NCBI GenBank assembly: GCA_033220425.1 | Contig: CM065652.1 | Span: forward strand, 1,116,001 to 1,180,000 | Origin: Lepraria neglecta | Lineage: Eukaryota > Ascomycota > Lecanoromycetes > Lecanorales > Stereocaulaceae | Length of the DNA stretch: 64,000 nt | Reading direction: 5' to 3' | Part shown: positions 13,154 through 32,652 of the stretch, piece after piece | How the letters are laid out: every line of letters begins with the position of its first letter | Numbering within the stretch: the first letter of the stretch is position 1 | Program-made: the position numbers and the translations under genes | Notes under the pieces: generated by a model | Database searches by the model: none | What the model saw: only the letters and a program-made list of their open reading frames with translations | What the model was told of the DNA's origin: nothing

Positions 13154-15848
13154 ATGCTACTACGATTCCCGGCTAGCCTCCATTACCCAATCACCGTCAC
13201 CGAGCTGCTGAAGCAACCAAACGACAACGTCGAGAGGTTCGCACCGCTGTTCTCTTATTTCTATAAGACTACGGTGACAGAAGGTGACGATTTGGGTAAT
13301 GAGTCTCAGGTCGAGAAGACGTTCCCGACTAGGTTCGAGTCCACCGTCGACGGCACGCTCGTGCGATGGAAGATTCAGAAGGGCGCAGTCATCACAAATC
13401 CAAAGTATGTGAATCTCTTTGAACAAGCGCTTCACTATACTGATTCACATACAGTGTGGACATCGCGGAAATAGAGGAACCATGCTCTCACAGCGTCCAA
13501 TTTGGTGGAATGTGCGTCAATTGCGGCAAGGACATGACCGAGTAGGTTCCAAAAACTTCGAGCGCGAACGAACAGCCTCCAACAGTAATGAGACTGATGT
13601 AAATTCCTACAGATTATCCTACAATACCGACCAACTCGATACCACGCGCGCGACCATAAACATGGTCCACAACAACGTCTCCCTTACTGTCAGCCAAGAC
13701 GAAGCCACAAAAGCAGATGATGAAGCCAAACGACGGCTACTGGCCTCAAGAAAGTTATCTCTTGTTGTCGACCTGGACCAGACCATCATACATGCTACAG
13801 TGGATCCTACTGTAGCAGACTGGCAGAAAGACGAAGACAATCCCAACCACGACGCCGTCAAGGACGTCCAATCTTTCCTCTTGAAAGATGACGGACCCGA
13901 AAAGAAGGGTTGCTGGTACTATATCAAACTTAGGCCAAACCTAAAGGAATTCTTGGAGAACGTCTCAAAGATCTATGAACTGCATATCTACACCATGGGA
14001 ACAAGGGCGTACGCGAAGAACATTGCGGACATCATTGATCCGCAGCACAAGATCTTCGGCGATCGTATATTAAGCCGAGACGAAAGTGGAAGCATGACAG
14101 CGAAAAATCTTCAGCGACTCTTCCCAGTGGACACCAAGATGGTGGTTATCATCGACGATAGAGGAGACGTATGGAAATGGAGTCCGAATCTCATCAAAGT
14201 AACACCTTACGACTTCTTCGTTGGTATTGGAGACATCAATTCTAGTTTTCTGCCTAAGAAGCCTGGACCGAAGCCATCACCGAAAGTAGTAGCCGTCGCC
14301 GCCCCAAAGCCCAATCAAGATCTCGCTGAAGGGGCTACTACAGAGGAACCTAAACCCAAGACAAATGGAGACTCAGCCCAGCACCCAGACTCTTCATCTG
14401 CCGAAGAGCCCGAGTCTCCAACAATCAGTAACGTATCCCCACTAGAACAGCTAGTGGCAATGGGAGGCAGCGATGATGCCAGCACACGCCAAGCCCAGAC
14501 AGTCTCCCAGGACGAGGCTCTGGCAGCGCAGCTCGAAGAACGACCTTTACTTCAAAAACAAAAGGAACTGGAAGCGGAAGATGCTGCGACTGAGGCTGCA
14601 GCGGCCAAGGAGGATGAAGATGCCGGCCACACTTCACAGTCTTCAGAAGTATCTTTCGTCTCCAGCGATTCCGACAAACCTAAACACAACCTCCTTCAAG
14701 ACCATGACCGCGAACTCTACCAGCTCGAAACTTCACTTCGAAAAGTCCACACCGAATTCTTCACCATCTACAACTACCAATTGGCCAACGCGCAAGGGGG
14801 TCGCCTGGGGCAGCTTCGGGGTGGACAGAAGCGGAAGGCTTCAGGCCCAACCGACAAATCAGATCTGGACCTCGTACCAGACATTAAGACGGTCTTGCCA
14901 GCAGTAAAAACCAAAGCTCTTGCCGGCGTGGTCATCGTCTTCTCCGGTGTGGTTCCCTTGGGCTTGGACGTTGGAACCACCGATATCGCTATCCTCGCCC
15001 AAAGCTTCGGCGCCAGAATCGAGGACAACGTCAACAGGAACACCACGCACGTCGTTGCTGCGCGAAATCGAACGCTGAAAGTTAGGAAAGCGCTGAAGCG
15101 CGGCAGAGGGAGGATCAAAATCGTAAATCCGCAATGGCTAACGGATTCGATCAACGGCTGGGAGAAAAAGGACGAAACGTCCTACCTCCTAGACATCGAA
15201 GAAGGGAGGTCTGGCCCTACAGATGATGACGATATCCTGAGCGAGAGTGAGTCGCCCGCCAGCGAGACAGACAACGATACCGACAGCAATCCTAGCAAAA
15301 AGCCTTCCTCAAGGCCCACACTTCACCTGAAAACGAGCAGCAACGCCGACGACACGGACTCCGACGTCGAAGGCGGCTTGCCTACTGATCTCGATATCGA
15401 CGAAGGCAGCCCTATAGGTGGCGATAACGAAGACTGGAGCGCGATGAACGACGAACTAGCGGACTTCTTGGGCAGTGATGCTGGAATAAGTGATGATGAT
15501 AGTAATAGCGTGGCTAGTGGGGATAGCTTCGCTAGCTCCAAGTTGAGTGTCAGGGGTAGTAGGAAGCGGGGGAGGGAAGACAATGATAGTGGGGGTGAAA
15601 GTGAGGATGGGACGGGGACGAAGGTCAAGAAGAAGATGAAGGGACTGACGAGTCTGAGCCAGGAGGTTAATGCTGAGATTGAGGCGGATGGTGGTCTGAA
15701 TGGGGATCTTCGGGAAGAGGATGACGACGACGAAGAATCGAGAGAAGAGGGCGATGGGTGGAGCGACTTCGAGGGAGATCTGGAGGAAGAGCTTGACAAA
15801 GCTACTAGTGAGGATGTGGTGGAGGAGAATACCCACGGGGAGAGCTAG
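13154..15848 (+). CDS. FCP1: RNA polymerase II CTD phosphatase FCP1
   Basis: Three exons, 13154-13404, 13455-13541 and 13613-15848, give 857 residues. The second exon is 87 bp and codes the conserved segment around CSHSVQFGGMCVNCGKDM. The catalytic FCPH domain starts at about residue 160 with the DxDxT signature (VVDLDQTIIHATVDPTV) and includes YTMGTRAYAKNIADIIDP and VVIIDDRGDVW. A BRCT domain follows at about 548-640 (VVIVFSGVVPLG ... NPQWLTDSINGWEK). The C-terminal 200 residues are very acidic and Ser-rich with a basic patch (KVKKKMKG). FCP1 removes phosphate from Ser2 of the Pol II C-terminal repeats so that polymerase can be recycled, and binds TFIIF through its acidic tail. The gene is intact. 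It forms the left border of the accessory island. Confidence 0.95.
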
Positions 15849-16321
15849 ATGCCCCGTCTTCGATGTTCATATACTCTTGATGCGTGTACATATTTGAGCG
15901 ATTCTTTACGAGGCATGGCGTCGACATCTTGCGTGGGGTTGGCATATGATACCCATGGCATACCTTCTGGCGGTCTTCTACATTACGAGGTTCAATGCAT
16001 AGAAACAATTTCAATCAAGACTCATTCACTCAAAGATCAATGTTCATGCTTGGTGGCTCTCTTTGTTCCGCTGACGTTCGTCTGCTGGGAAATTTCCTCC
16101 TAGTCCTACTTACTCGTCGGTTCTACACTCCAACTTCTTTCATATTTGCTTCTTTTCGGGCTCACGTTGATTAGCATTATTGGCAAGGATATGCAGATTC
16201 GCTTTATTTCCACTACGCAGTATGACTACTATACCTGACGCCACCAGAGCACCTGCTAATCCGAAACAATATGCGAAACTTCAAGCAAGCAGCCCATATC
16301 CAGATAATTTACATCCAGTCA
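15849..16321. other. FCP1 downstream region
   Basis: Unique-looking sequence with no supported gene on either strand. It separates the FCP1 stop from the duplicated POL2 3' segment. Before any insertion it was probably the FCP1/POL2 convergent intergenic region. Confidence 0.5.
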
Positions 16322-16545
16322 CACATATATACAAACTCCACCACCATTGCCCATGCATCACAACCGCCCAAGCACATCCCCAACAACCCCCCCAAGCATC
16401 CTCAACCCATAACCCCCCCAACCCTCTCCAACACTCTCAGTCTCCCAACCACCTCCTCCCTCCCCACAGTACCAACCCACTCCCCGCTACACCCACAATG
16501 CTCCATAAAATCATTAACCCTAATCTTCCTACATTTCTTATCCGC
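16322..16545 (-). pseudogene. Duplicated 3' end of POL2 (C-terminal zinc-binding segment plus stop)
   Basis: This ~225 bp segment matches about 25790-26010, the end of the real POL2 gene, in the same orientation with only scattered differences: a 3 bp deletion in the CCA run, a lost A near 16412, and several transitions. Read on the minus strand it codes the last part of the second cysteine module (KCRKIRVNDFMEHCGCSGEW) and the gene's C-terminus, but the lost base shifts the frame near the end. It starts abruptly at 16545, where it abuts the transposase remnant, and has no promoter or start. It is a fragment, not a gene. Confidence 0.9.
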
Positions 16546-17165
16546 TACGTAGCACTCGTTTAACTAATAATAAAGCCCTTCTCATCCTAATTATAGATAT
16601 TCTCAGCGGTAATATGATATTTTTCGACTATATTATATAACTAATATAAAAATTAGTATATAGCTAAATAATTAACAAAAGATAAAAAGCAAGTATTACA
16701 AGCTGGTAAAAGTGCTCAAAAGAAGGAGTATATTCAGCTTTGGTACGCTGCTTATCTATATTGCTCAAATATATACTTTTTAATTCCGTTTTGTGCCTGC
16801 GTATAAATTCCCCAGTCTAATTTTTGCCTACTGAGTCACCAATTATTGCCTCCGCCATATTTTTAACCATTTGACTAGTTGGTGGTATGCCTCTGTCTAT
16901 TAGACGATTAATCTGCTCAATAAGGGTCTTTTCCTGGCTTACTGAAAGGCGTTGGAGGTACATTGATGAGGCAACTGCAGCAGAGGTTTAAAGGCCTAAA
17001 AAGCGCCGGCGTAAGGTAAATCGATCCACATGGTATTTCAGAGTAGTCGCCCTATAATTCGGTATATCTTGCGACCTTAAATCTGCAAGAGCAAGCTCTA
17101 AAGCAGTGTTGTTGGCTGTGGAGGCTATAGAGAAGTAAAAATGGTAGATTTGCATTGATGAGTCG
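16546..17165 (-). mobile_element. Pogo/Fot1-like DNA transposase remnant, RIP-mutated and truncated
   Basis: On the minus strand from about 17158 the frame reads a CENP-B-type helix-turn-helix region (LELALADLRSQDIPNY, then FTLRRRFLGL), then LIEQINRLIDRGIPPTSQMV and FIRRHKTELKSIYLSNID, and, in a shifted frame, NIYN-stop-DEKGFII, which is the region of the first catalytic Asp of the DDE domain. Stops interrupt it: CAA to TAA after FLGL, and TGG to TAG after VGKN and after NIYN. All are C-to-T in CpA context on one strand, as expected for RIP. The rest of the DDE domain is missing; at 16545 the sequence changes to POL2 DNA. The AT-rich part at 16570-16700 is the most mutated. GC-rich DNA at about 17160-17220 may be the 5' end of the element. 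Confidence 0.85.
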
Positions 17166-17409
17166 CCGAGCCGGGTGAGTCGTCGGCCCGGGATATCGCT
17201 TAAGCCGCCAAGGCCGCCTTATCAAAGGCTTGGCATTTGAAATTTTCAGGGTGATTCAAAGAAACACGAAGTTTCTGCTCGCACATAAGACCTCAGAAAA
17301 TCAAAGCCTCTTTTCCAATACCAAACTTTGAGTTCTCGTTGGCTTATCCTACTAAGAATCCTGCCAAAATCCACACCGTCTGCTAAAATAACTGTCTCAC
17401 TTTGACAAC

Positions 17410-19139
17410 ATGGTGAAGGGAAAAGTCTGCTTGGTAAGTGATCGTCTAGAGGGTCAAAGACCACATGCAGGATGTCTCTCTAACAGTAGCTAGGCCTACA
17501 GTGGTGGGATTAAGTCTGGAAATCCCTCGAGAAGTCAACCGCTAATCCTATCACACAGGCGGTCTGGACACAAGCTGCATCCTGAGGTGGCTACTTGGTA
17601 GGATCCTCATAATCTTGATGTTCATGGGATAGTCTTAAGGGCTGACGAGCCATACATACAGATGAGGGGTATGAAGTCGTTTGCTGCCTTGCAAACGTTG
17701 GACAAGAGGAGGATTGGGATGCCGTGGAGAAAAAGGCGCTCAAAATTGGCGCACAGAAATTGGTGATTGAGGATTTACAGAAGGAGTTTGTGGAGGAATT
17801 GTGTTTCAGGGCAGTGCAATGCAACGCTCAGGTGCGTGTACCTCATTTGCTATTTTGAATTATATCTAGGACACGGAGACTAACTCAGACTCACAGTACG
17901 AAGGACGCTACCTGCTTGGCACATCGCTTGCACGTCCGGTGATCACGCGATGTCTCATGCGAACGGCACAGCATGAAGGTTGCGACTACGTAAGCCACGG
18001 TGCAACGTTTAAGGGTAACGATGGAATCCGCTTCGAGCTCGCCGCGTATGCACTACAGCCCTCTATCAAGATCATTGCCCCATGGAGAGAGAGCAGCTTC
18101 TTCAACAAATTTCAAGGTCGGAATGATCTGTTGGACTATGCTGCAGAGAAAGGCATACCAGTTACGTCAACTAAAGCAAAGCCGTGGTCGATGGATCAAA
18201 ATTTAGCTCACTGTAGCTATGAAGCGGGATATCTGGAACAGCCTGACCAAACGCCTCCAGATGATATGTGGACTATGACTAACGACCCCCTGACAGCTCC
18301 TAACGAGCCTACCGATATCACAATCAGCTTTCAACAAGGAATTCCGATTAAACTCGTCACGCCACAGAAGACATTCACAGAATCCGTACAGCTCTTTAAA
18401 GAGCTAAACCGGATTGGCAAAATCCACGGTACGCAAAGTATACTCAATGATCTCGGATCCATCGCGAAATTAAGTTTTGAATTACTAATATTTGTGCTAA
18501 CGATTTAGGTATTGGTAGAATTGATATTGTAGAGAATAGATTTCTTGGTGGCTTGAAATCTCGTGGATGTTATGATGTAAGTCAATTCAAGCTTCTGATC
18601 GCAAAATTGCCTTAAATTCTGAAAACGTTTTCTAAATATTTTTTTAAAGTCTCCAGCTATGACTATTCTTCGGCTTGCCCACCTTGATATCGAAGGATTG
18701 ACTCTCGATTCCCAAGTTAGAGCTCTTCGGGATCAGGTAAGCCATACATCCCACCTAACGGATTTGTCACAATAATGGCTGATGATGGAACCAAGTTCGT
18801 GACACACAACTGGAGCACTTGTCGTAAGTTATGACCTTCGCATTCCGATAGCATCTAATCTTCTCTATAGTATACAATGGATATTACTTCGCTCCCGAGA
18901 GACTCTTTCTGGAAAACTCGTTGGTCTTTAGCCAAAAGACCGTGAACGGCGAAGTCCGATTACGGTGCTGCAAGGGAGCTGCCTACGTTCTTGGTCGTTC
19001 TAGCACGACTTCAAAGCTCTACTCTCAGGAGGAAGCCTCAATGGATTCTTTGGAGAATTTCGATCCGGTGGATACCACAGGATTTATTAAGATCCAGGCG
19101 ATCAGGCTAAAGAAGTACTCGGAAGAATGGACTGTGTAA
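17410..19139 (+). CDS. ARG1: Argininosuccinate synthase, divergent but intact (possible paralog)
   Basis: Nine exons: 17410-17433, 17494-17503, 17559-17597, 17662-17831, 17897-18428, 18509-18576, 18650-18736, 18796-18823 and 18871-19139. They splice in phase into 408 residues, the normal family length. The enzyme joins citrulline and aspartate using ATP in arginine synthesis. The ATP P-loop reads AYSGGLDTSCIL (residues 9-20). By human ASS1 numbering, the substrate residues Thr119, Asn123, Asp124, Arg127, Ser180, Ser189, Glu270 and Tyr282 have counterparts (SHGATFKGNDGIRFE, PWSMDQNLAHCSYEAG, IVENRF, SRGCYD). Unusual changes include Phe for Gly in GATGKGND, CCLANVG and CFRAVQCNA where most family members have F and P, and an extra Gly in RFLGGLKSRG. 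The gene lies next to a dead transposon in an accessory region, so a second, faster-evolving copy is likely. Confidence 0.88.
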
Positions 19140-19427
19140 GGGTAAAGTACTGGCCAGAGGTTCTTTATGTCCGTGTTCGGCTCTGATATAATTGGATTTA
19201 AATTTGTTTACAAAAGTTACAGGCTTTGGGTTCTGGGAGTGAATCACATCGTCATTTCCATTCCCTTGTTTACTAGCCTATTCTACTTGCTACGTAACAG
19301 CTATCGAGGAGTTCTAGTGATTTGCAGTGTTCCCGAGCTACATCATCCGTATTTGGAAACCCGCTCTGTAACACGATCTCAACCCTTCTGTCATACATTG
19401 GCCGGTCCAATTTTTATGATTTTGAAT

Positions 19428-22400
19428 CTACACCAACTTTTTTACCCGCAGCCATTCTACTTTGCTTTCGATGCTCTTACGATTCCGGGGATAGCCGAAG
19501 TGCTTCTCAAACTGCGCAGCTATATGCGCCATCGTCTTCCTCTCTTTCTTGCGTTTCTTCTCCTCTGATATAAGCCAATCTATCTCATCTTGCGTCCATG
19601 CCTTGTGTTTGAGTGTGCTCTTATACCCTGGCTGATCTCTATGATGAGCTTTGAAACGTCCATGGAGAGCTCCTGGGGTTCGAATAATGCCAAATTTTCG
19701 CTGAAGCTCTTCGGCTATTTGCTCCCAGGACATGTTTCGATTTCTGCATTCATCAAGTAACTGGTCTTCTTCCTTCTTCCATTTGGGGCCAGTCCTTCGG
19801 CCTCGAACCGACGCCTGAATAGTAACAAATGTTTCATTCTTAATTTTCGCCCAATCTGGCCTCTCCGCATCAGGCGTTTTGGGGTCCAAGGCTCTCCGAA
19901 CCTCCTCATATCGTACTTTGAGCTCTTCGAGTTGAACTTCTTGTTGAAAAGATTCGCCATGTCTTTCCACAACATGCCCTTGTTGGCTTTCCCCACAATC
20001 CACAATATCTGATCGGAAGAATTCGCCCAGGCACTGGGAGAAAGTTTTGGGGCTCTCCATTGCAAAAACTGCCGGGCAAAAGATCCTATTGACCTTGGCT
20101 CTCGGTCAATGCCAAAAAGGACATTTATTTGTTTGGCAATATTGTGGAAATCGACCGATTCTCCATCAAAGACTCTATTGTACAGCCACTCCGCCTCTTC
20201 CGTGGACCAACATTGTCCGTAGACCGTCGGATCGGCCTGACTGGGTTGACTTCGTGATATTCTGACTCGTTTCGATTTCAGTTGCCCGGATGCTAATGCT
20301 CGTCGTTTACGACGTCCGGACTCCGCGTCACTCGAAGCTACAAATGATGCAATGTTCTCACCGGCTGCTTGCAGAAGTAAACGGCGTTCGCGATGGTAAA
20401 GTTCTGCCATACGCTCTTTTAAGCAAGACACAGGCAAGGAATGCAACAAGTTTCCGTCTCTTGCGCGAAAGTTGATTGCATTCTCATCGAAGAAAATTAA
20501 ACATCCTTCGTCGTCCTTCACCTTCACGAGCTGCTGATAAGTGCTGAAACCAAGATTGTATGGCATTTTGTTCTCGCCTGGCTTGAATAATTTAGGTCTC
20601 CTATTTGAATATGTCCCAGTGCTCAAGTACCGTGTTGGTATAAGGCGTCCGTGGTAACGAAAATCTTCATCGTCTACGAAATCCTTGATTCCGAGGTGCT
20701 TTCGCATTTTGAGGCGCGTGAGCCACTCTTTCTTCTTGACGATCTCGGAGTCCAATTGAGTGATAGCATCCACCAGAACTGAGTTACCGCCCTTTCTCAG
20801 CTGCTGGGGGAATCGCAAATGTAACCAGGCCCATGTACTTGCGTTGCCATTAAGATAGGAGGCGCTGATCAACTCTTTAATGGCTTCAGTCGTCTTGTTG
20901 TCTTCAGATTCGTCGTCGAGAGGCTCGCTGTCTTCAGGCTCGCTATCTTCGAGCTCGTTGTCGTCAAGCTCGCTGTCTTTAGGCTCGTTGTCTTCGGACT
21001 CGCTGTCTCTCCGTATGCTGTTGATATAACGGTCGTCCTCAGACTGATCGTCACGAGGCTTCAACTTCTTCTCGGCCTCGTTCACTCCGGTCTGGTTCTC
21101 AAATGTCTTAATGCGGTCGTTCCGAGGAATCGAGTTGCCGAAAGCTTTCGAGCCGTCATCGTTTTTTAGGAAGCCCATTTTATAAGCTTCCTCCCAAAGG
21201 ACCGGGATCAGTATTCCGTAGCTCTGTTTGATTTTCTCTTCGTTAATGTCAACCCCATAGCGCTCGGGTAGCCATTTCAAGACTTTGGCCATAGCGTCAT
21301 TTTTAGTCATGATCCAATTGATCCAACGGGGGCAAAGGTCGGGATTAAGAAATGATCCGATAGCACATTCAGCTTTGGAGGCATACTGATGTGTAGCGAT
21401 CCTCAAAATTGTCCCGTCCTCGTTCCAGGCTTGTCGAAGTGCGTCCATAAAGCGTAGAACTTCGACTGGCATTTGACCATTGGCGATGTAGTCATAGACC
21501 CAGCCAAATCTTTCTTTGAGACCTTTGGGCGTGTTCGGCGATGGATTCCCCCATTCATCAGATCCCATGTCAAGAAAGAGCTGTTCCCAGAAGTCGTCAA
21601 GGGTGGCGCTCCCTTCAGCGAAGATTGCTCGATGCATATCTGTCATATGGCGAACAAGAACCCGGAAACTTGAGATACGGTGTTGACCCATCATAGGGTT
21701 CTGTCTGGCTCCAGTTGTGATTTGGAGCTTTGAGCCACCGGAAGGTGCAATCATGTCGAAGTCTAGGCGCGGAGTCAGCATTGTATCCGAATAGCTTAAA
21801 ACTTTAAGGCGGTGTTCATCACTGGGCCAGACGTAGCCATTGCTTGAGTCTTGATAACCTCCTTGCTCGGACAAGCTTTCATCATCGCGTCCGCTCACAT
21901 CCTCTTCGTCGGCCTGGCAATCAATGGCGTCAAAATTTGCTACATCATTCCAGCCATCTCCTTGGTCGCCACCCGGCGAAAAGTAAGTCACTGCTTCTGA
22001 GGAAATATCACAGGGTCTGTCGAGAGTCGGGTCATATGTCCACTGGGGAAGGCAATTCCAATCTTTGATGCGCTGTCTGTTATAATCCCAGATATAGACG
22101 ATGTCACTCACTCCTTTGGCTGGTATTTTGCCTGGAGGCACACCGTCCGACAAAAGCTGCGCCATGCTTTCGTGCCAGACTTCAAGGAAAAACTCCCAGT
22201 CCATAACAAATTTTGACATTATGGCATCATCTATGTTGGAGCAAGTCTGCTGGACTCGCTTGTACATATGGTACATTACAACACAAAGGAAGCGTTTTCT
22301 GAGATAAAGTGAATGTTGAGATCCTCGCACCAGAAAATGTGAAGGAGCCGTTGCTGACAAAGATACACGTATTAATGAAACTATTCGAGACGATTTCTAA

Positions 22401-22813
22401 GTCATATACTTACAATTCAAGTGTTCGCAAATGTCTCTTAAGAGCATCTCAGGCAGAATTGCGCGAGCGAAGTGATGAAGCCAGGAACTTAAAGTTTGGC
22501 CGCCCTTCTGAGACCAGTCCTCTCCGCGAAATCCGTGATGGCGAAGAAAAGCAAGAAATTGAGAAAACGTCTTGACCCCGTTTTCCAACTCCGGAATATG
22601 ATAGTAATTGTCGTTCTCATCCTCTGAATCTGCAACCAATCCCTTGCCCTCTAGAAAGGTCTTGGTATGACATATTAGAGACCAATGCTTTCTCCACCTA
22701 TAGTTTTTCAGAGACTCAACACCAGACTCCGGGTGCTTGCAGATTTGCCGGTAGAGATGCCTTATACGCTCGGAAGATTTGTTGATTCCTGCTTTCTGCA
22801 ACTCTTCTTCCAT
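19428..22813 (-). CDS. Large protein with four Myb/SANT-like repeats, frameshifted near the C-terminus
   Basis: Exon 1 runs from an ATG at 22811-22813 to 22414; a 60 bp intron (22354-22413) leads to a long second exon. The N-terminal two thirds match no family I know. At 20887-21011 there is an acidic repeat (SEDNEPKDSELDDNELEDSE). The C-terminus has four Myb/SANT-like units: CWSTEEAEWLYNRVF, WANSSDQILWIVGKANKG, PKWKKEEDQLLDECRNR and KAWTQDEIDWLISEEKK. The first two lie in one frame and the last two in another, switching at about 19935-19955; no intron fits there. The last frame stops at 19428-19430. The gene is therefore either newly inactivated, read as a shorter protein ending at the in-frame stop at 19715, or affected by a sequencing error. 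Nuclear DNA binding is inferred from the Myb units. Confidence 0.6.
20887..21011 (-). repeat. In-gene tandem repeat coding Ser/Glu/Asp units
   Basis: About eight imperfect 15 bp units, such as TCTTCAGGCTCGCTG on the plus strand, code for repeated S-E-[DP]-x-E type pentapeptides in the Myb/SANT protein. Such in-phase repeats expand and contract easily and usually form flexible acidic linkers. Confidence 0.75.
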
Positions 22814-23804
22814 GTCTGCCAATGATCACACTTCGAAGGCTAGTTCTACAGGCAATTTCTTTGGTACAACCGCAAACAGCGACGCATCTAAGGGTACGTC
22901 TCCCAGCACGACTGGTTTCTCTGGGTTCGGTTCCTCCAGCAGCACCACATCCAAGGCTCTGTCCGCAAAGGGTCTCTTTGGAATGAACGATGGTAGTCCC
23001 AGTAGCAACAGCTCTAAAGCTCCGTCTGCAAGTAGCCCCTTCCGCACGAAAGCTGTCTCTTCGAACAGTGAGACTTTGGAATCTACTTCATCGACTTATT
23101 CATTGGGAACAGCTGAATCCTTATCTTCTTCAACGACTGGTGGACTATTTGGCACAAACCCCTCGCCTTGGAACACCCAAATTCCCGAGACCACTCCCAC
23201 GGGGATTTCTAGTGCAGCAGTGCAGCCCTCGTCTTCGACTACGACAGGCTCTGTCTTTGGCACAGCAGCGACGTCTACAGAGAGTGGGCCTTCGCAAAGT
23301 GCGACCGGCTTTTCCGGATTTGGGACATCTTCTTCCACGCCCAGGGGCGGGTTTGGCACGAACGCCACTACTTCTACCAGCCATGATACGTTCAGACTCA
23401 CAAAGCCGATGCCTACCGCTAGCAACCTCTTCAGCGCATCTAGAGAGACATCGACCAGCACGGCCTTCGGCTCCAGGGGCATCACAGAGACTGCGAGCAC
23501 GTCTAAGCCGACGACGTCGACTGCACCAAGCGTTCTTACATCCGCAGACTCGGCGCAAACGGACAGCCTTTCCCCCAACCCGTTTCAGGCCAGCTACTGG
23601 CTCAATAAGGATAATCCTTTCGCGCATCAATCTCCTTCGCCGTCGCCCGCGCCGACGCCGAAGTCGCGCAGTCCGCAAGCACGAGAGACGAGGAGCAAAG
23701 CTTCTCCGAAACCTGCGGCGGCGGAAACGACAGCACTGGCAGCTGAAACGCAGCCAGCTGCTACCAGAAATGGTGTGAGTGACGAGACGCAGACCGGTGA
23801 CTAG
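22812..23804 (+). CDS. FG-repeat (nucleoporin-like) low-complexity protein
   Basis: A single open frame of 330 residues starts at the ATG at 22812 (the frame stays open to 22779). It is made of Ser/Thr/Ala-rich spacers with FG motifs: FFGTT, GFSGFG (twice), GLFG (twice), SVFGTA and GGFGTN, and ends with a Pro/Ser/Lys-rich tail (SPSPSPAPTPKSRSPQ). FG and GLFG repeats with such spacers are the hallmark of nuclear-pore FG nucleoporins, but there is no folded anchoring domain, so the role is uncertain. The minus strand is also nearly open here, with two stops; I prefer the plus strand because it has no stop and shows the FG pattern. Its start codon overlaps the start of the Myb/SANT gene on the other strand. 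Confidence 0.5.
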   Translation: MSANDHTSKASSTGNFFGTTANSDASKGTSPSTTGFSGFGSSSSTTSKALSAKGLFGMNDGSPSSNSSKAPSASSPFRTKAVSSNSETLESTSSTYSLGTAESLSSSTTGGLFGTNPSPWNTQIPETTPTGISSAAVQPSSSTTTGSVFGTAATSTESGPSQSATGFSGFGTSSSTPRGGFGTNATTSTSHDTFRLTKPMPTASNLFSASRETSTSTAFGSRGITETASTSKPTTSTAPSVLTSADSAQTDSLSPNPFQASYWLNKDNPFAHQSPSPSPAPTPKSRSPQARETRSKASPKPAAAETTALAAETQPAATRNGVSDETQTGD

Positions 23805-23835
23805 TAACAGCAGGCGTGACCCGTGAGAAATTCGA

Positions 23836-24655
23836 ACTTAATCCCGAAGAATTTGTACGGCTTCTTGAAAGATTCTCCAAGTATCTATGGATTCGAGACT
23901 TGTCCCATATCCTTATTGTGGAAATAGCACATCAATGTAAACAAAAAAAGAGCTATACCAAATGGCGATTTGGACAAGACTAGAGACGGTAATAGATCAT
24001 TGGCGGTCTGAAGATATTCACGCTACAAGTGCACCATTAAGTCAAGCCCTTTTCAACGTTGAGACGATTAAGAAATCCCAGCCCGAATTATTTCCTGAGA
24101 CAACAAATCAATTACAAAACTTTCTACAGCAGTCAATTGCTGACATAGAGCCTCGAAAGATTCCAGGTACGTTATAACTCTTGATATAGATCCTCTGACG
24201 TAAGCTAAGTACTGATATTATCGCTTGTAGTTGGAAAACCTTGACGAGATGACAACATGATGGATGAGGTATTTTATTTCTTTGAATGTAAGGATATACC
24301 TCTCTTATTTAGAATCTCAAGACGGCTTCGATTTTGGTCAAACCCATGGGGATTATTAATAGAACAAGCCGAGCTTCAGTATAATACAAAGCTATAAAGA
24401 AGCAGCAATCTGAGATAGATCGGCAACAATAGGTTATCACTTGCCTAAAATATCGGCATGCTTTGGAAATTTTGCCAAATGTGAAATGCCAATAAATTCC
24501 CAATGCCGGCTCTAAAGCTACTCCTATGTGGCAAGCGACACGGCAACTTGCTGTGGAAACCGAACTTGGCAACAGGATCAAAGATTATTTCACTCCAAAA
24601 AACCCAGCTGTCACCGCTCTACCAGCGCCTCCATCAACTCTTAGGTCACTATTTT
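23836..24655 (+). pseudogene. Relic of an unknown protein gene with RIP-like stops
   Basis: Protein-like segments run along the plus strand: one at 23820-23970 (NPEEFVRLLERFSKYLWIRD), one at 23962-24172 (MAIWTRLETVIDHWRSED to the donor-like CCAGGTACG) and, after intron-like sequences, one at about 24312-24655 (KAIKKQQSEIDRQQ, then LKYRHALEILPNVKCQ and VETELGNRIKDYFTPKNP). Stops in the last segment sit where Gln codons would fit (CAG to TAG, CAA to TAA), as RIP would make. I recognise no family. It is best read as a decayed gene. Confidence 0.45.
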
Positions 24656-24719
24656 AAAGTGATTTTGCCAACTAGGCATCGAAAAATCTTCTCAAAAGTG
24701 CGACCCACCCTTCAATAAT

Positions 24720-24930
24720 ATCAACACCCGGTGCCCTGGTCAAGCACTATAAACTTCGGTACGACAGCTGGTCCGGTTACGAACGTGAATGGACTATGTA
24801 CAATGAATTGAGTAAAACTATCCATGGATATAGCGATTCTTATGCAATTAATAAGAGTAACTGGGCGAAATCAGACGGCCTCATTCTTGAATGGCTCAAA
24901 CCCAGTCCCAACCTAATGGGAAAGTAGAAT
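24720..24930 (+). pseudogene. Fragment of an unknown protein
   Basis: A short open stretch on the plus strand reads TPGALVKHYKLRYDSWSGYE, then MYNELSKTIHGYSDSYAINK and DGLILEWLKPSPNLMGK before a TAG. It has normal protein composition but no start, no family I can name and no continuation. It could be a further piece of the neighbouring relic. Confidence 0.3.
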
Positions 24931-25601
24931 GGGATAAGGAATGGTCAAAGAGAGGTCTCCCACCATGAAAGAGCTTGCAAAGAGCAGGTTGCTCGGAAGT
25001 GAGAGAGGACACTCTAACGGATTGCTGAGAGAAAGAAGACGGAAACATGCTTCGGCAAGGGTGTTTACGCATGAGATTGGGACTCATTATTGCCCACTCC
25101 TGTCACTTGCAGAGTGACTGTGTGACATAGATGCGAATGAGTCTGATAATTGTAACTTTATGGTTCACTCAAAAGTAATGAACAAACGGAGAAAGTCTCT
25201 CGATTTGTTCGGCCTAAATTAACGACTCGGCAAATCTGGCGCTCGTTTAGACATAGCTGAGAGGTTCCTTGGACAAGTCCTAGTAATTGATTGTATTTCG
25301 GTATATAAAGCTTATCTCCTATAGTTAGAGTTAACGTTCATGCCTGACCAGATGTAACAAGCCTCACCGCAGAGTGGATCTAACTGGGGGCAAGTTTCTC
25401 TTTCGAAGAGAGCCAGAATGGTGAAGCCAGTTTTGCAATTGACTGTATTCGTGGATTAAGCCTGGATATCTATTTAGGATGCTGCAGGCTGAGCTAGGCA
25501 ACACTGTTGATGGAAGTCGTCATAAATAATACGAGCAGCTGTAGCCGGGTACCGGGCAGCCAAATTAGGCTCCCACCTGTGGCGCCCATGCACTGCCTCG
25601 A

Positions 25602-25719
25602 AGTGCTCCCTTGCTGCGCCCATCTGCTCCCCCCAGTGCTCCCTCGGTGCTCCCTCAGTGCTCCCTCAATGCTCCCCGTGCTCCCTTGTGCTCCCTCGTG
25701 CTCCCTCGCTGCTCGCTCT
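25602..25719. repeat. GTGCTCCCTC minisatellite
   Basis: About nine to ten imperfect copies of a 10-11 bp unit, consensus GTGCTCCCTCR, in tandem. The unit varies by single bases (GTGCTCCCTCA, ATGCTCCCC, GTGCTCCCTT). It lies 70 bp left of the segment that matches the duplicated POL2 3' end, at the right border of the accessory island. Confidence 0.85.
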
Positions 25720-25831
25720 AAAAGCGGCTTTGCTCCCTTTCCCAATCAAAAAGGGTAATCCTCGATCCTAAGTTCGGGGTGTATATAATGTATATATATA
25801 CACAAACTCCACCACCACCATTGCCCACGCA

Positions 25832-28800
25832 TCACAACCGCCCAAGCACACCCCCAACAACCCCCAAAAGCATCCTCAACCCATAAACCCCCCCAACCCT
25901 CTCCAACACCCTCAGTCTCCCAACCACCTCCTCCCTCCCCACAGTACCAACCCACTCCCCACTACACCCACAATGCTCCATAAAATCATTAACCCTAATC
26001 TTCCTACATTTCTTACATTTCAGATCCTGCGTCTGCCATTCCACTAGCATTTTTTGCACGCGACCGATCAGGCGCTCTTCGATGCCTAGGCGGTCGTATT
26101 CGTGCTTGCAGGTTGGGCAGGTCCATGCGCGTGCTGCTGGGGTAGAGTTGGCCCCATTGGTGGTGGAAGGGTCGGGTAACACATCCTCGTCGCGGCAGAG
26201 ATCGAGGTCCCGGGACATAGTGCAATGGTCGCATATCAGCTGCTCTAATTTAAGACTCTGGCTTGGATTCTCGAAGCGCGCTTGAGGACTGAATTCTTTG
26301 ATCTCGAAGAATGCGAGGAGTTCTTTGCGAAGGTAGCGGACTTCTAGGTTTATGCCTTTGTCGAGGGAGAAGGCGTGCATTATTGATTTGACGAGCTGGA
26401 GGACTGGGTGCGTGTTTGTGAGGTTGAGATGGGAGCCTGGGAGGATGGGGAAGGTGTGGTCGGCTGCTAGGTCTGGGTGGGCGAGCTCGGAGCGGTGGCG
26501 GGAGATGAGGGCGAGGATTTGACGTTTTAGGGGTTTGGAGATTGATTTTGTGAGTATTTCTTTGCTTGTGGTGGTGTCGTCGTCTTGGGTGAGTGTGCGG
26601 ACGGGGAGTTGAGTCGGTCGAGGGGTTGGTCCCAGCTGGGAGTCGTCGCCAATGGGTAATTGGCGTGGTCGTTTGATGTTGTGCATTAGGTCGATGAACT
26701 CGACGACCCAGTCGTGGAAGACTGATTGGTATTGAAGTGGGAGGAAGGTGTTGAGTTGCCAGTGCATTATAGTGTCGAGATGTTGGTTTTCTGCTTCGAC
26801 GACTTCCTGGCAAGCTTTTCCGCCGTAGTTGAACTCGTCGTACCAAACAAGGTAGTCCCAGTATTCTTTGATGTCCAGATCGAGGAAGTGGAACAGTGGC
26901 TTAGCCTTGATAGACTTTAGAATGTACTGGCTGTAGGCGTAAGCATTGCCAACCTCTGCTTTCGTGGTTTGGAGGAGGAGTCGATTGGCGTTGGCGAAGA
27001 CTACGTGGGAGCCGACACGCTTGAAGTCTGTCATCAGCTGCTGGAAGGCTTTTCTGGACATCATCTGGACGTAGCAGTGCAATGAGCGGTCATAGAGGAA
27101 CGATTCGGGGCTCTCAACCCAGCGTACGAGATGCTGCACCATAACGTCTGCCATACTGCTACCCTTGCAGGCTTCAGTCCACCACGCTTTGACCATCTCT
27201 CGCAGGACAGTAATACCCGCGGAAGCGAAGACATTGTCCGAGTAAAGAACACCGGTGCCATTGTTGGCATCTTCTTCCGAAGGCGCAGCTGGATTGAAAG
27301 AAACAGAGTCGCTGCCTTCGAGCTCATTGATGAGCGAGGAAGTCAGGATGGTATTGATTGCGAGATTCCGAACGTCAAGCTCTATGCATACTGAAGAGTA
27401 AGTACCCGGGTTGTTAACTGCGGGCATGCTGACTGTTTCCATTGGAGTCAATATGTCGTCCTTTTCGTACCCGGCATGATCAGGCAAAGGACCGCCGGAC
27501 CACCATAACACTACGTTACTCTTCTGCAACCGCCGTGCGTACGCAACGTCTATGAGGAAGCGCGGATCGTCTCTCTCTAGATTACAAAGAGGAACGTCTC
27601 CATATCTTGCAAGCTCGACCAGATGGCTGATCCATGAACCTAGGGTAAGATAGTGGGTTACCAGACGCTTGACAACAAATCCTTGCCAGCCAAGTTGAGG
27701 GATGTTGCTATCGGATGCTTCGACTTTTAGAGGAAGGACTGGCAGCTCGTTGAGAGATGGTATGTCATGGAGCAGTAACCGTCTTTGTGGTGACTGAATC
27801 ACGAAAAGCGTCGGTTTGCTTTCATCACTTCTTATCTTCTTTATGGCGTCGCCAACGTCGCGATGTAATTTTCTGACCGTCCTGACATGGGTGGTCTTGA
27901 ATTGAAGCTTCTCCTGGTAATCGAAGATGTTCTGCCAGCGCTCTCCACCATTGTCGCTGAGCTTTCGAGCTAGTAGCTGCGAGTAGACTTTTTCAGCGTT
28001 GGGCATTTCTTGAGTATCCCTGGATCGATCGAGCACGATGACATGTGCCTCATCCTTGACGGTAGAGAAGATGGCAAAGATTTGACGCTCACCCGCAACG
28101 AGGTGATAGACGAAAATGAAACCCATGTCCGCCTCCAGTAGGTACGGTGTCTTTGCTGGAGTCCGTCGTAATGCCGAAAGGTCGAAACCATGCTCTAAAC
28201 CTCGCCCCAATACTCCTTTTTGGCTCTCATCGAAGGTACAGAGACTTCCTAATTCGAGGACTGCCCTCATAGTGAGAGGTACCTGCTTCTCGTAGACGCC
28301 TTCGACACTCGGATGATTGAACAAGATGGCCACCTTCTGCGCTTCTCTGACATACACCTCCTCTGGCATCACAAGCTTGAAAAGATGTACAGATGGGTGT
28401 CCATTTGGCAGGGTATGGTTGACCTTCTCAACTGCACAACCCTCGATCACGACTTCAGGAAGTTCGTTACTTCTGAGGTTCAAGAATAGTATTCGAGGTA
28501 CTTTCACAGTCAGTGGATGCACTTTTTTGTCAATGAGCACGAATGCCCGGATCTGCCCTGGCGTTTCCGATTCTCGTAGTTGTAGGACCTGCCAAGTATT
28601 GATGAAGAGCATCTCAGCCTGATTGCGGAAGAGTCCTCCCAACATGTCACCCACTGCGTTGTTTCTCTCACCGAAGAGCTGCCGCCGCCGTATACGAGCT
28701 TGCTTCTGGATCTTCCACTTCTTCTTTTGATACCTCAGAAAGCCCTCATAGTCCTCAGTCATTGATGGCATCTTTGCTGGTAGACTAGCGTAAGGATCTA

Positions 28801-31800
28801 GATTTGGGACAGGTGCTGGCTCCGGCTCTTTCCTCTTCTGCACCATCCGTATAATCTCACCAGTCTTCGCCTTCGAGAGCTGCGTCGATCCGAAGTCTTC
28901 CAGGTCAGTTGGCAATCGATGATCCAGAGTGTTGGTGGATATTTCAGACAATGGCGTCTTTTCAAACAGATCGGTCATTTTCTTCTGCTTGAATCTGTCA
29001 TCTTTGACATTGATCCTGCGCTGCAGCCAGTCTGGATGGCCAACCCTGGGTACAGGATTCCGAATTTTTTGCAACGCGGCCGGAATTGTGATGACCTTCT
29101 GCACCACAGAGCTCAGGCGCTCCAGATAGTAATCCCAATCAATGAGCGCCCGAGGGTTCATGTCACTGGGATCCTCTTTCAGCCATTTTCGCAGGAAATA
29201 GCGTTTGACCTGGTCGTCTGCTGAGAAGATAGCTACTGGGATAGCTCGCTCCGTCACAGGTGCATTCTTGGGCTTCGCGGCAATGATATACTTGCAGTTG
29301 AGACCTTTATCTTTCACCATTTGCGCGCCCAAAAACTCTGCTAACCTCTTAGCTGTAGTGATTGACGTCGACTTCTGCGCTCCGTACTCCTCAAGAGCTT
29401 TCGTCATGCTTTTGTTTTCGCTAATCAGCTCAATGAGCTCTTCGTCTGCGAGGGCTGACCCATGCTGGTGCAATACATCCAGCCAACGATTAGCAACCTT
29501 AGCTACTGCAGCGTACGTCTCGGTCAATGTTTCACCATCGAGGAAGAATTTGAAGATTTGTGTCTGGAAGATCTTGATGAGTTTGAGTTCTCCTCTCCGC
29601 TTCATTTCGAACCCTTTCAGTTCTGCTAGACTTCCATCATGGTTGAACACAGCGTATCGCTTTTTCAAATTCTTATCTTCCTCTTTGGATGTTGGCAAGA
29701 TCATAGCTCGGTAAGGCCCGTCAACTTCGAAGAAAATGGTATTATCGCTGTGAGTCTCGTATCTGAAAGTCTGAGGATCGACTAGGTCTTGGTACTGGTG
29801 ATTTGTGAACCTGGCGTGGACGAGATGGTTGAGCATGGTACATGGGTAAGAAACTGGTAGCTTCTTTCCGTTTTTGAGTGTAAAGACGACGTTTTCGGGA
29901 AAGGTGGCCGGTAACATGCACCAAATACCATCGGTGTCGAGTTCCAACGGTCTTCCAATCCGCTCAACTAGCTCTCTTGCCATTTGGATGATGTGAGCTC
30001 CAGTCAGACAAGTGACTCCGGCCATCTCCATCGAGTACCATCGCGAACCTTTGCGCATTACATAGCCGTAGAAGCTGTTTAGGATGACCTTGTGGGCTAA
30101 CTGAAGGGAGTCAAAGAGCACGATCATTTTCTTGGCCTCTTCGATCTCAGTGGCCAACGCTCCTGATGACTTCAGCGTTTCTGTGTTGTTCTTCCACATC
30201 TTTTGCTTTCCCTTGTAGTCATATCTCCGGTCTCGGAAATTCTTGACAGTGTCAACATAGAACGGGTTCTCTCGTTGGCAGATGATAGCCTCGCGCTCGG
30301 TAATCTTAGTCTCATGGATCTTGTGATAGATTTTCTTGCTGTAGTCCGTAAGTCGCTTCTTGACCATGCTGGCCTGTTCCTCGACGCTCATGTCCTGGAA
30401 TGTCCGTGCCGGGCTGTTTGGCAATTTTCCTGGAAAGCGTTCGTTTTCGAGAGCGTGCCTGACCATGTTGTACTCATTCTTCTGGGCTGGAAGAAATTCG
30501 CCTCTCCACGACCATGGCATTCGTCGATCGCATGTCTTTCCTGGCCTGTTGAAATCGCAGGCTGCGCAATCAGCCTCGGAAATCATCGAGTCAGGCTGTA
30601 ATCGGTTGGTCGTCATGATATTAGGATACATCGACGCTACGTCCAAATGGTATATGGACGGTCTTTCATTCCGATTTGGTGTGGCTTTCAAGCTGTCTAG
30701 CTTGGCCATAATCTCAGCCTTGACTTCATCGTAGTTGGTGATGTCTGCCAAAGACTTCTTCTCCTCTACCGTGATACTGAACTGCAACGCAGCATCAAGG
30801 TCTCGTTTGAGCTCATCGACGGCTGTAGTATCCAAGGCAAAGTTTACAGGTATGTCGCTGCGGAAAACTCCTGCTTCAATACTCTCGACGTGCCCTCCAA
30901 CATAGGTCTCAGACTCCAGAAGATGGCCATCCCAGAACATCTCCTTGGGTTCCTTGTGCTTATTGGGCAGGGCAATCCCCTTCTGGTACGCCTCAACCAT
31001 AAGAAGCATCTCACACAAAGTTCCCGTGCCCTTCCTAAGGGTGTCATCCGGGTTCAGAGGGATGATGTTACATAGCGAGAAGATGAAAGGATGTACGTAT
31101 TTCATGTAGAGGTAGTAGGTCGCAACAGCATCCGAGACGGAGTATTCAGCCAAAGTCTGTGGCTTCTCGCTAGCATACCGTGTCATAAGCTCAGGATCCA
31201 ATTCATCGGGGTCGTAACCAAGCTTGGCCACTGTGACAGCCTTCAAGCCTCTGCTGCCTTGGGGGAGATAGCTGTCTCGACTGACCCAGCTGAAGCAGTC
31301 CATGTGAACACCATAATTACTCTGGTAGATGTCTTCGCTGTTCTTTCGATACCCAATTTCTTGGTACATGTCGATCCCCAGGACGCTAGCTCTTGCCTCA
31401 ACGAATGGCCAATCGAAGAAGTCACCGTTGTAAGTCGCGATGACTGTTGGACGGGCTTCTTTGATGTGTAAGAAGAATCGTTCGATGACAGCTTTCTCAT
31501 CCGGCTCATTGAAAATAAGAAACGGACCATCGTACTCTGGCTTTGGCGTGTATTCGAAGTCCGCAATATCTTCCGAGACGATCTCTCGATTAGTGATCAA
31601 AAAGCCTTGACCGTCAATCATATACGATATCATCATAATCTGATCGACGACTGCGTCTGGGAACTTCAAAGGCAGTTTCGTCGTCTCAATATCGTAGGCA
31701 AGCACCACGGGGTCTGCTCTCTGTATTCGCTCCTCAATGCAGGTAAGTTTGGTAACGCCATGTTTGGCTTCCACGGTATACCATTTTCCAATCCGAATGT

Positions 31801-32652
31801 CTGTTCCTGTCAGCCCTGGTCCAAGTCTTTCCTATCACATTATGGTCTTACCTTTGTCTATCGCAACTCGTACATGGTAGGGCACGTCAAATTCCCGAAT
31901 ATCAACGATGTAATGACTCGCGTCCGCTATGCCGTTAAGTCGTCTATCATTATCTCGTTCATCATCAAAAAGATCGAAGCCAGCATTGGCGCTTCTCGAG
32001 TTAGCATTTCCCCCTCTGAGCATGTAGAACACAATCCGTACCTAGCCACCTCGGCGTATGTATCCATAGCATTCATGCTGCCCTTGTTCTTCTCCGCAAT
32101 TGGCATGATCGTCTTCCTCACACTCAATAAATCATTCACATTCTCGAATGCCAATTGTAAAAACGTCCTTCGGTATCCTAGCAGATGATTCGGCATCTGA
32201 AGATCTTCCTTCTCTATCCGCTTGATCCCTTTCACCACACCCTCGAACTTCCGCCGGCACCACTCTTCGACCTCAGGTTCCTTCCCTTTCCTCACAGCGA
32301 TCAGAAAATATGGATCATATTCCACTGTAGCCTTGAATGTGCCGCCGTCCTCCTCCAAGAAGTAGTAGTCCACCCCAGCACGACCTCCCGGGATCTTCTC
32401 ATCCTCGATGGTCGTACTGTGCATGTTGATAAGCCATCCCACTTTCTTCTTGCCCGAGTCATAGCGCGCGAAGCCCATAGACTCGTCAATTGAATTAGCG
32501 AGGCGCATAGCTTGGAGCTTCTCATCTTGGGAAGTTGCTTCGCTGGAGCGGAGAGTGGAGGCATCGACTGTTTTTGTGTGCCGTGGATTGGACTGGGATT
32601 TGAAGGAACGGAAGCTGCTGCCATATCTTCGGTCTGGCTTTCGAGAAGGCAT
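25832..32652 (-). CDS. POL2: DNA polymerase epsilon catalytic subunit A
   Basis: Three exons on the minus strand, 32652-32042, 31994-31852 and 31800-25832, give 2240 residues, the normal length. This is the leading-strand replicative polymerase. The exonuclease part starts near residue 288 (AYDIETTKLPLKFPDA), with Exo II as TYNGDFFDWPFVEAR. Polymerase motif A is LDVASMYPNIMTTNRLQPDS, motif B is NSFYGYVMRKGSRWYSMEMA and motif C is LELDTDGIWCML. The inactive second polymerase half follows, and the C-terminus has two cysteine modules (CDHCTMSRDLDLC ... CPTCKHEYDR and CKKCRKIRVNDF ... HCGCSGEW) that bind DPB2. All catalytic acids are present. It is divergent from COX20. Its last ~220 bp are duplicated at 16322-16545. 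Confidence 0.97.

Follow-up and report, generated by a model that had tools for sequence, protein, structure and literature searches.

The FCP1-POL2 Interval and the Duplicated End of POL2

The window, a 64-kb stretch of the Lepraria neglecta genome (C7:1116001–1180000; 42.0 Mb searched, in 11 contigs, of which C1 to C8 each exceed 4 Mb), contains a convergent pair of conserved genes encoding an FCP1-like CTD phosphatase and the catalytic subunit of DNA polymerase epsilon (POL2), between which lie an orphan direct copy of the POL2 end and, from that copy to the end of POL2 itself, an insert of ~9.3 kb that holds truncated genes, a transposase fragment, a dispersed repeat and an argininosuccinate synthase (ASS) gene (Table 1). 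Genes resembling UTP6 and APC1 lie further out, confirming the first-pass annotation that conserved genes flank the region on both sides. The right-hand POL2 is intact, its stop-free frame of 1934 codons terminating in the polymerase-epsilon zinc fingers with a stop codon at 25832–25834. Because this frame begins within the exonuclease domain (profile position 91), the 5′ exon is probably contained in the minus-strand ORF at 31927–32652. Searches for POL2 relatives in viral and prokaryote collections returned pattern hits, none of which was confirmed.

Table 1. Features of the FCP1-POL2 interval, in window coordinates.
Feature	Position	Strand	Evidence or remark
FCP1-like CTD phosphatase, left flanking gene	13482..15848	+	Pfam NIF 2.9e-28, BRCT 6.6e-11
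Intergenic DNA, FCP1 to left copy	15849..16325		Would be the original POL2 3′ flank under the insertion model
Left orphan copy of POL2 3′ end, frame-broken	16326..16540	-	Alignment, genome search
G-quadruplex motif (left copy)	16406–16424
Left joint, TTA common to POL2 end and transposase fragment	16538..16540		Sequence comparison
Internal fragment of Tc5/pogo transposase	16538..16987	-	HTH_Tnp_Tc5 9e-06
Argininosuccinate synthase	17410..19139	+	9 exons by manual splicing, 408 aa, stop-free
Myb/SANT-family gene	19431..22813	-	~240 N-terminal residues missing at 22813 vs. P0008/P0009; frame break near 19930
SANT/FG joint, 5′-truncated genes head to head	22803..22813		tblastn of homologues on the window
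FG-rich gene fragment	22803..23804	+	~190 N-terminal residues missing vs. P0139, P0142
Broken gene remnant	23805..24924	+	Distant relative at C2:5493044–5494483; tblastn 33% (E 3e-07), 42% (E 5e-16)
Dispersed repeat "B"	25475..25804	+	Variable GCTCCCTC minisatellite body plus conserved end finishing in (TA)n
G-quadruplex motif (repeat B)	25674–25705
Right joint	25790..25804		(TA)n at the tail of B runs into TATATACA in the POL2 3′ flank
Right copy, POL2 3′ end in use	25800..26015	-	Alignment, genome search
POL2, main exon, 1934 aa uninterrupted	25832..31636	-	POL2_thumb 1e-80, DUF1744 9.8e-165, zf-DPOE 2e-24
G-quadruplex motif (right copy)	25880–25899

The two POL2-end copies have the same orientation, the left extending from 16325/16326 to 16540 and the right from ~25794–25801 to 26015. 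Aligned over 217 columns, they differ by one 3-base and one 1-base internal indel and by eight substitutions (3.7%, 95% interval 1.6–7.1%), six of which are transitions and two of which sit in the edge TA tract, where the alignment is unsure; the divergence is thus ~4%. A search of the genome gave 95% identity between the copies (E 3.7e-91) and 47 matches in total, two being the copies themselves and the other 45 hitting query bases 1–110 only, where they belong to a dispersed repeat at 25700–25809 and not to POL2. A third copy was not found in the 42-Mb genome, nor another long repeat pair in 15500–27500, and part of the intergenic DNA beyond FCP1 (16200–16325) had no other genome match. The direct duplication first noticed from the sequence alone stands, with edges shifted by ~5 bases; what had been called the last ~220 bp of POL2 is indeed its end, made up of ~184 bp of coding sequence (the last ~61 codons) and ~32 bp of 3′ flank. 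The segment shows strand asymmetry, its |C-G| being reached by 0.2% (right copy) and 0.4% (left copy) of 215-bp segments in the 64 kb, and each copy carries one of the ten G-quadruplex motifs found there, on the POL2 coding strand. Within its conserved part the repeat offers two synonymous differences, too few to tell which copy is older, and that approach was abandoned.

Composition of the Insert

At its left edge the insert opens on the transposase fragment, which we take to be Fot1-like and which matches nine other places in the genome at 65–68%, with one match at 84% over 100 bases. Read by eye, the sequence past the joint is the same transposase continuing in eight of these nine places and a diverged transposase relative in the ninth (L018); because the homology continues beyond the joint, the left edge is not a transposon end. 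The "dead transposon" of the first-pass annotation is an internal piece of a transposase. Its GC content is 33% (16541–16936) and its TpA/ApT ratio 1.2 vs. 0.69 for the window; this composition is compatible with old RIP-like decay, though the second index, at 1.03 vs. 1.29, is less clear.

The Myb/SANT-family gene matched 18 proteins, two of which (P0008 and P0009) reach 22813 and extend 249 and 236 residues further, whereas the remaining 16 have matches that begin deeper in the gene, for which introns are the likeliest reason. Twelve proteins matched the neighboring FG frame; nine of them extend at least 60 residues upstream of its start in the window (~190 in P0139 and P0142), whereas three short homologues (P0145, P0146, and P0147) extend merely 4–17 residues upstream. 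The two truncation points lie at most 11 bases apart. Judged against these homologues, the Myb/SANT and FG genes reported earlier are both present but look 5′-truncated, and the former is also frame-broken. The ~240-residue N-terminal part of P0008 and P0009 yielded only a Myb/SANT match below threshold, towards its end (residues 206–282), and its start resembles a GIY-YIG domain by eye. Neither gene, nor the missing N-terminus of either, had another match in the genome, the empty N-terminus search having lacked a positive control.

The right edge is formed by one copy of dispersed repeat B, which is what the minisatellite listed earlier amounts to. The conserved end of B reads AATCCTAAGTTCGGGGTGTATATAA and then (TA)n, and the right POL2 copy begins within this (TA)n, which is the natural end of B. 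A genome search matched 53 stretches including that of the window (52 others), a count that is a lower bound and in which a single copy sometimes accounts for several stretches. Pairs of B copies join by their tails at (TA)n, as AT-rich palindromes, in three other places read (L031; L027/L034; L036/L046), and TA tracts may therefore be the usual target of B.

With so many of its pieces truncated or frame-broken, the insert is a patchwork. The proposal of a coherent accessory island did not hold up: two genes look 5′-truncated and abut, only ASS looks complete, and the nearest DUF3435 (Starship captain-type) match on this contig, at C7:873854–874069, is ~258 kb away. DUF3435 matched 36 places in the genome, many with internal stops and none in the window. 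We found no second DNA match for 17401–22900 and no donor locus for the insert in the genome. A region of C2 (C2:5466001–5516000, L065–L069), compared as five 10-kb pieces, contains sequences related to the transposase and to the remnant gene, along with several copies of B, at 66–88% DNA identity over short stretches; having no match to 17410–23804, it was rejected as the donor. That no donor was found speaks against plain copying; the possibilities that remain are relocation, a donor since lost, or DNA from another lineage.

Possible Origins of the Duplication

On balance we think it probable, if narrowly so, that the DNA was brought in, and the POL2 end doubled, through break repair or template switching. 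Ancestrally, FCP1 and POL2 would have converged ~0.5 kb apart with a single POL2 end, at which a break or a stalled fork would have occurred; repair would have joined in ~9.3 kb of other DNA while the ~215 bp between the break points was copied on each side. This could have run through a pair of offset nicks, with fill-in of their overhangs ahead of joining, or through a fork that, while copying the POL2 end, moved to another template at TTA and came back at a (TA)n tract, and both routes fit. The duplication, the overlaps at the joints and the truncated pieces within the insert are observed; the ancestral state, the order of events, their completion in a single step and the source of the inserted DNA are what we infer, and the internal joints of the insert could mean several events. 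Since POL2, like its counterparts in other eukaryotes, is presumably essential, only an event leaving the full right-hand end could have survived. With a G-quadruplex motif in each copy and a third in B, a stalled fork is a reasonable start, such motifs being plausible fork obstacles.

The edges of the repeat coincide with those of the insert, as a target-duplicating insertion predicts, and on the right the repeat begins inside the terminal (TA)n of B, where an insertion that created it would place its start. On the left the insert opens inside a transposase, as end joining would lead one to expect. Short overlaps mark both joints, TTA at the left one and (TA)n at the right one; chance could produce overlaps of this length, and 3 bp by itself is weak evidence. 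The lack of a third copy and of another long repeat pair nearby, the truncated and frame-broken content of the insert, and the strand asymmetry of the duplicated segment also speak for such an origin. Some observations count against break repair. No donor was found in the genome, which is awkward for template switching of the copying type, and a flanking duplication of 215 bp is long: among 92 T-DNA sites read on both sides in Magnaporthe oryzae, five carried duplications of 1–11 bp (PMC2169514).

The coincidence of edges would be accidental if the DNA between FCP1 and POL2 were older, B had inserted beside POL2 in the ordinary way, and the left copy were a later ~215-bp filler of POL2 sequence in a break by the old transposase fragment. 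We hold this to be unlikely, if far from negligible. It needs only two new joints, the TA-rich 3′ flank of POL2 could be a normal target of B, given that B pairs meet at (TA)n, and no 9.3-kb donor is required, so that the failed donor searches fit it and favor it somewhat. The copied piece would, however, have had to start no more than ~10 bp from where B ends, whether accidentally or guided by overlap at (TA)n, and the FCP1-side flank would be unrelated to POL2.

It is decidedly improbable that a simple 215-bp tandem duplication came first, B then entering the second copy at its TA tract and more DNA arriving at the same junction. B does end at TA tracts, and fill-in of break overhangs makes small tandem duplications in mouse and human cells, where fill-in of two ends followed by joining gives direct copies, as in one of the two routes above (PMC8355091). 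Those duplications are nevertheless described as short insertions of <100 bp, without a 9-kb insert, and at our locus the later insertions would have had to land exactly between the end of the first copy and B. Tandem duplication of a longer unit was rejected, since B precedes the right copy only.

We consider it very improbable that a specific mobile element (Starship, Helitron, or retroelement) created the repeat as a long target-site duplication. The right edge is a natural B end and a transposase fragment lies at the left, but with the left edge internal to that transposase, element ends are not present at both flanks, and the unit 17401–22900 has no second match in the genome. A Starship origin was rejected because no captain is nearby, the window being free of DUF3435 matches, and the eight introns kept in ASS mean that this part is not cDNA. 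B itself was considered as a maker of long target duplications elsewhere. Of 29 B loci fetched, representing 25 distinct places, 28 could be compared, the pattern having missed L035, and they showed no long duplication of the 3′ flank within 1.5 kb upstream, the matches seen being to the minisatellite or end of B itself, or 13-mers; as it would miss the case in the window, where the left copy is 9.3 kb off, this test bears only on short insertions. An assembly artefact is scarcely credible, for the copies differ by eight substitutions and private indels, have different flanks, and lie on a chromosome-sized 4.73-Mb contig with long uninterrupted reading frames nearby.

The locus has parallels elsewhere. 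In bacteria, integrase islands at tRNA genes rebuild the 3′ end of the gene that they enter, which stays intact; the likeness is a duplicated 3′ end beside an intact gene, but no integrase Pfam domain was found in the nine ORFs and seven fragments of the window that were scanned, and the edges here are repair-like. In rice, Vaughn and Bennetzen reportedly described in 2014 insertions flanked by duplications, ascribed to patch-mediated break repair through offset nicks and fill-in. These share with our locus a local direct duplication at the insertion, whereas here the host is a fungus, the insert comprises 9.3 kb with gene pieces, and the duplicated sequence is the end of a polymerase gene. 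In the "patching gaps" account of Wicker et al. (2010), as described in PMC3445842 with related remarks in PMC4423477, genes serve as the filler when breaks made alongside transposon insertion are repaired. As described there, it resembles the present case in the transposon at the edge, the gene-bearing filler and the loss of gene order, and differs in that here no donor copy was found in the genome and ~215 bp of flank is duplicated. The structural scar in the FCP1-POL2 interval is real and well delimited, its origin is probably of an ordinary kind, and one gene that it carries may be consequential.

The Argininosuccinate Synthase Gene and Biological Meaning

ASS is, from its spliced sequence, the sole gene in the insert that looks complete. 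Among the matches listed, its closest named relative is that of the lichen fungus Lambiella insularis, at 97%; the locus number of that gene (MMC13_000282) was tried as a hint of a contig position near 1 Mb, but this is a guess to which we give no weight. In a tree of 51 proteins (49 of the best 120 of 7999 hits plus the two ASS genes of this genome), the insert ASS clusters with L. insularis, an ENA protein, Trichoglossum and Cladophialophora (support 100/99), fungi that belong to different classes, and apart from Lepraria, Schaereria, Agyrium, and Caloplaca. This placing fits lateral transfer, or an old paralogy with losses. The protein has one extra residue in the GLKSRG part of the ENR-x-x-G-x-KSRG motif. 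Among the best 120 of the 7999 hits, 110 have the motif at normal length, nine have a variant that by eye lacks the extra residue, and in one (P0107) the motif was not found; the residue is also absent from the two best solved ASS structures.

The only other ASS gene in the genome, at C2:3380800–3382000 (L051), has its fifth exon frame-broken in this assembly and sits on a long branch (0.66) placed beside Loxospora with weak support (85/28); intact relatives exist. There is accordingly a slim chance that the insert ASS is the sole working copy in this genome and that arginine synthesis may rest on it. If so, a misrepaired break swapped a core metabolic gene for a patchily distributed paralogue, and loss of the insert by recombination would cost arginine synthesis and mostly the POL2 tail as well.

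Such recombination had been expected to delete the insert and leave POL2 intact, which holds only for the smaller part of the repeat. Two of six computed crossover points, both in its left part, restore the 1934-residue POL2 with none or two residue changes, whereas the four to the right of these yield a 1919-residue product with VGGVMG at its end, the last 15 residues being lost. Because of the frame break at right-copy position 25885, the left ~85 of the 215 bp favor an intact POL2 and the right ~130 bp do not.

The locus shows that gene order between conserved neighbors can be broken without killing the cell, and that, for an essential gene, breakage within the coding end is tolerable only when repair copies that end. 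From the ~4% divergence of the copies, the scar could be dated once a neutral rate is known. It also raises the question of how fungal genomes come to gather gene fragments in decay, with perhaps a useful gene among them, when no dedicated mobile element is at work; if the ASS gene on C2 is truly dead, replacement of a core gene becomes a testable case.
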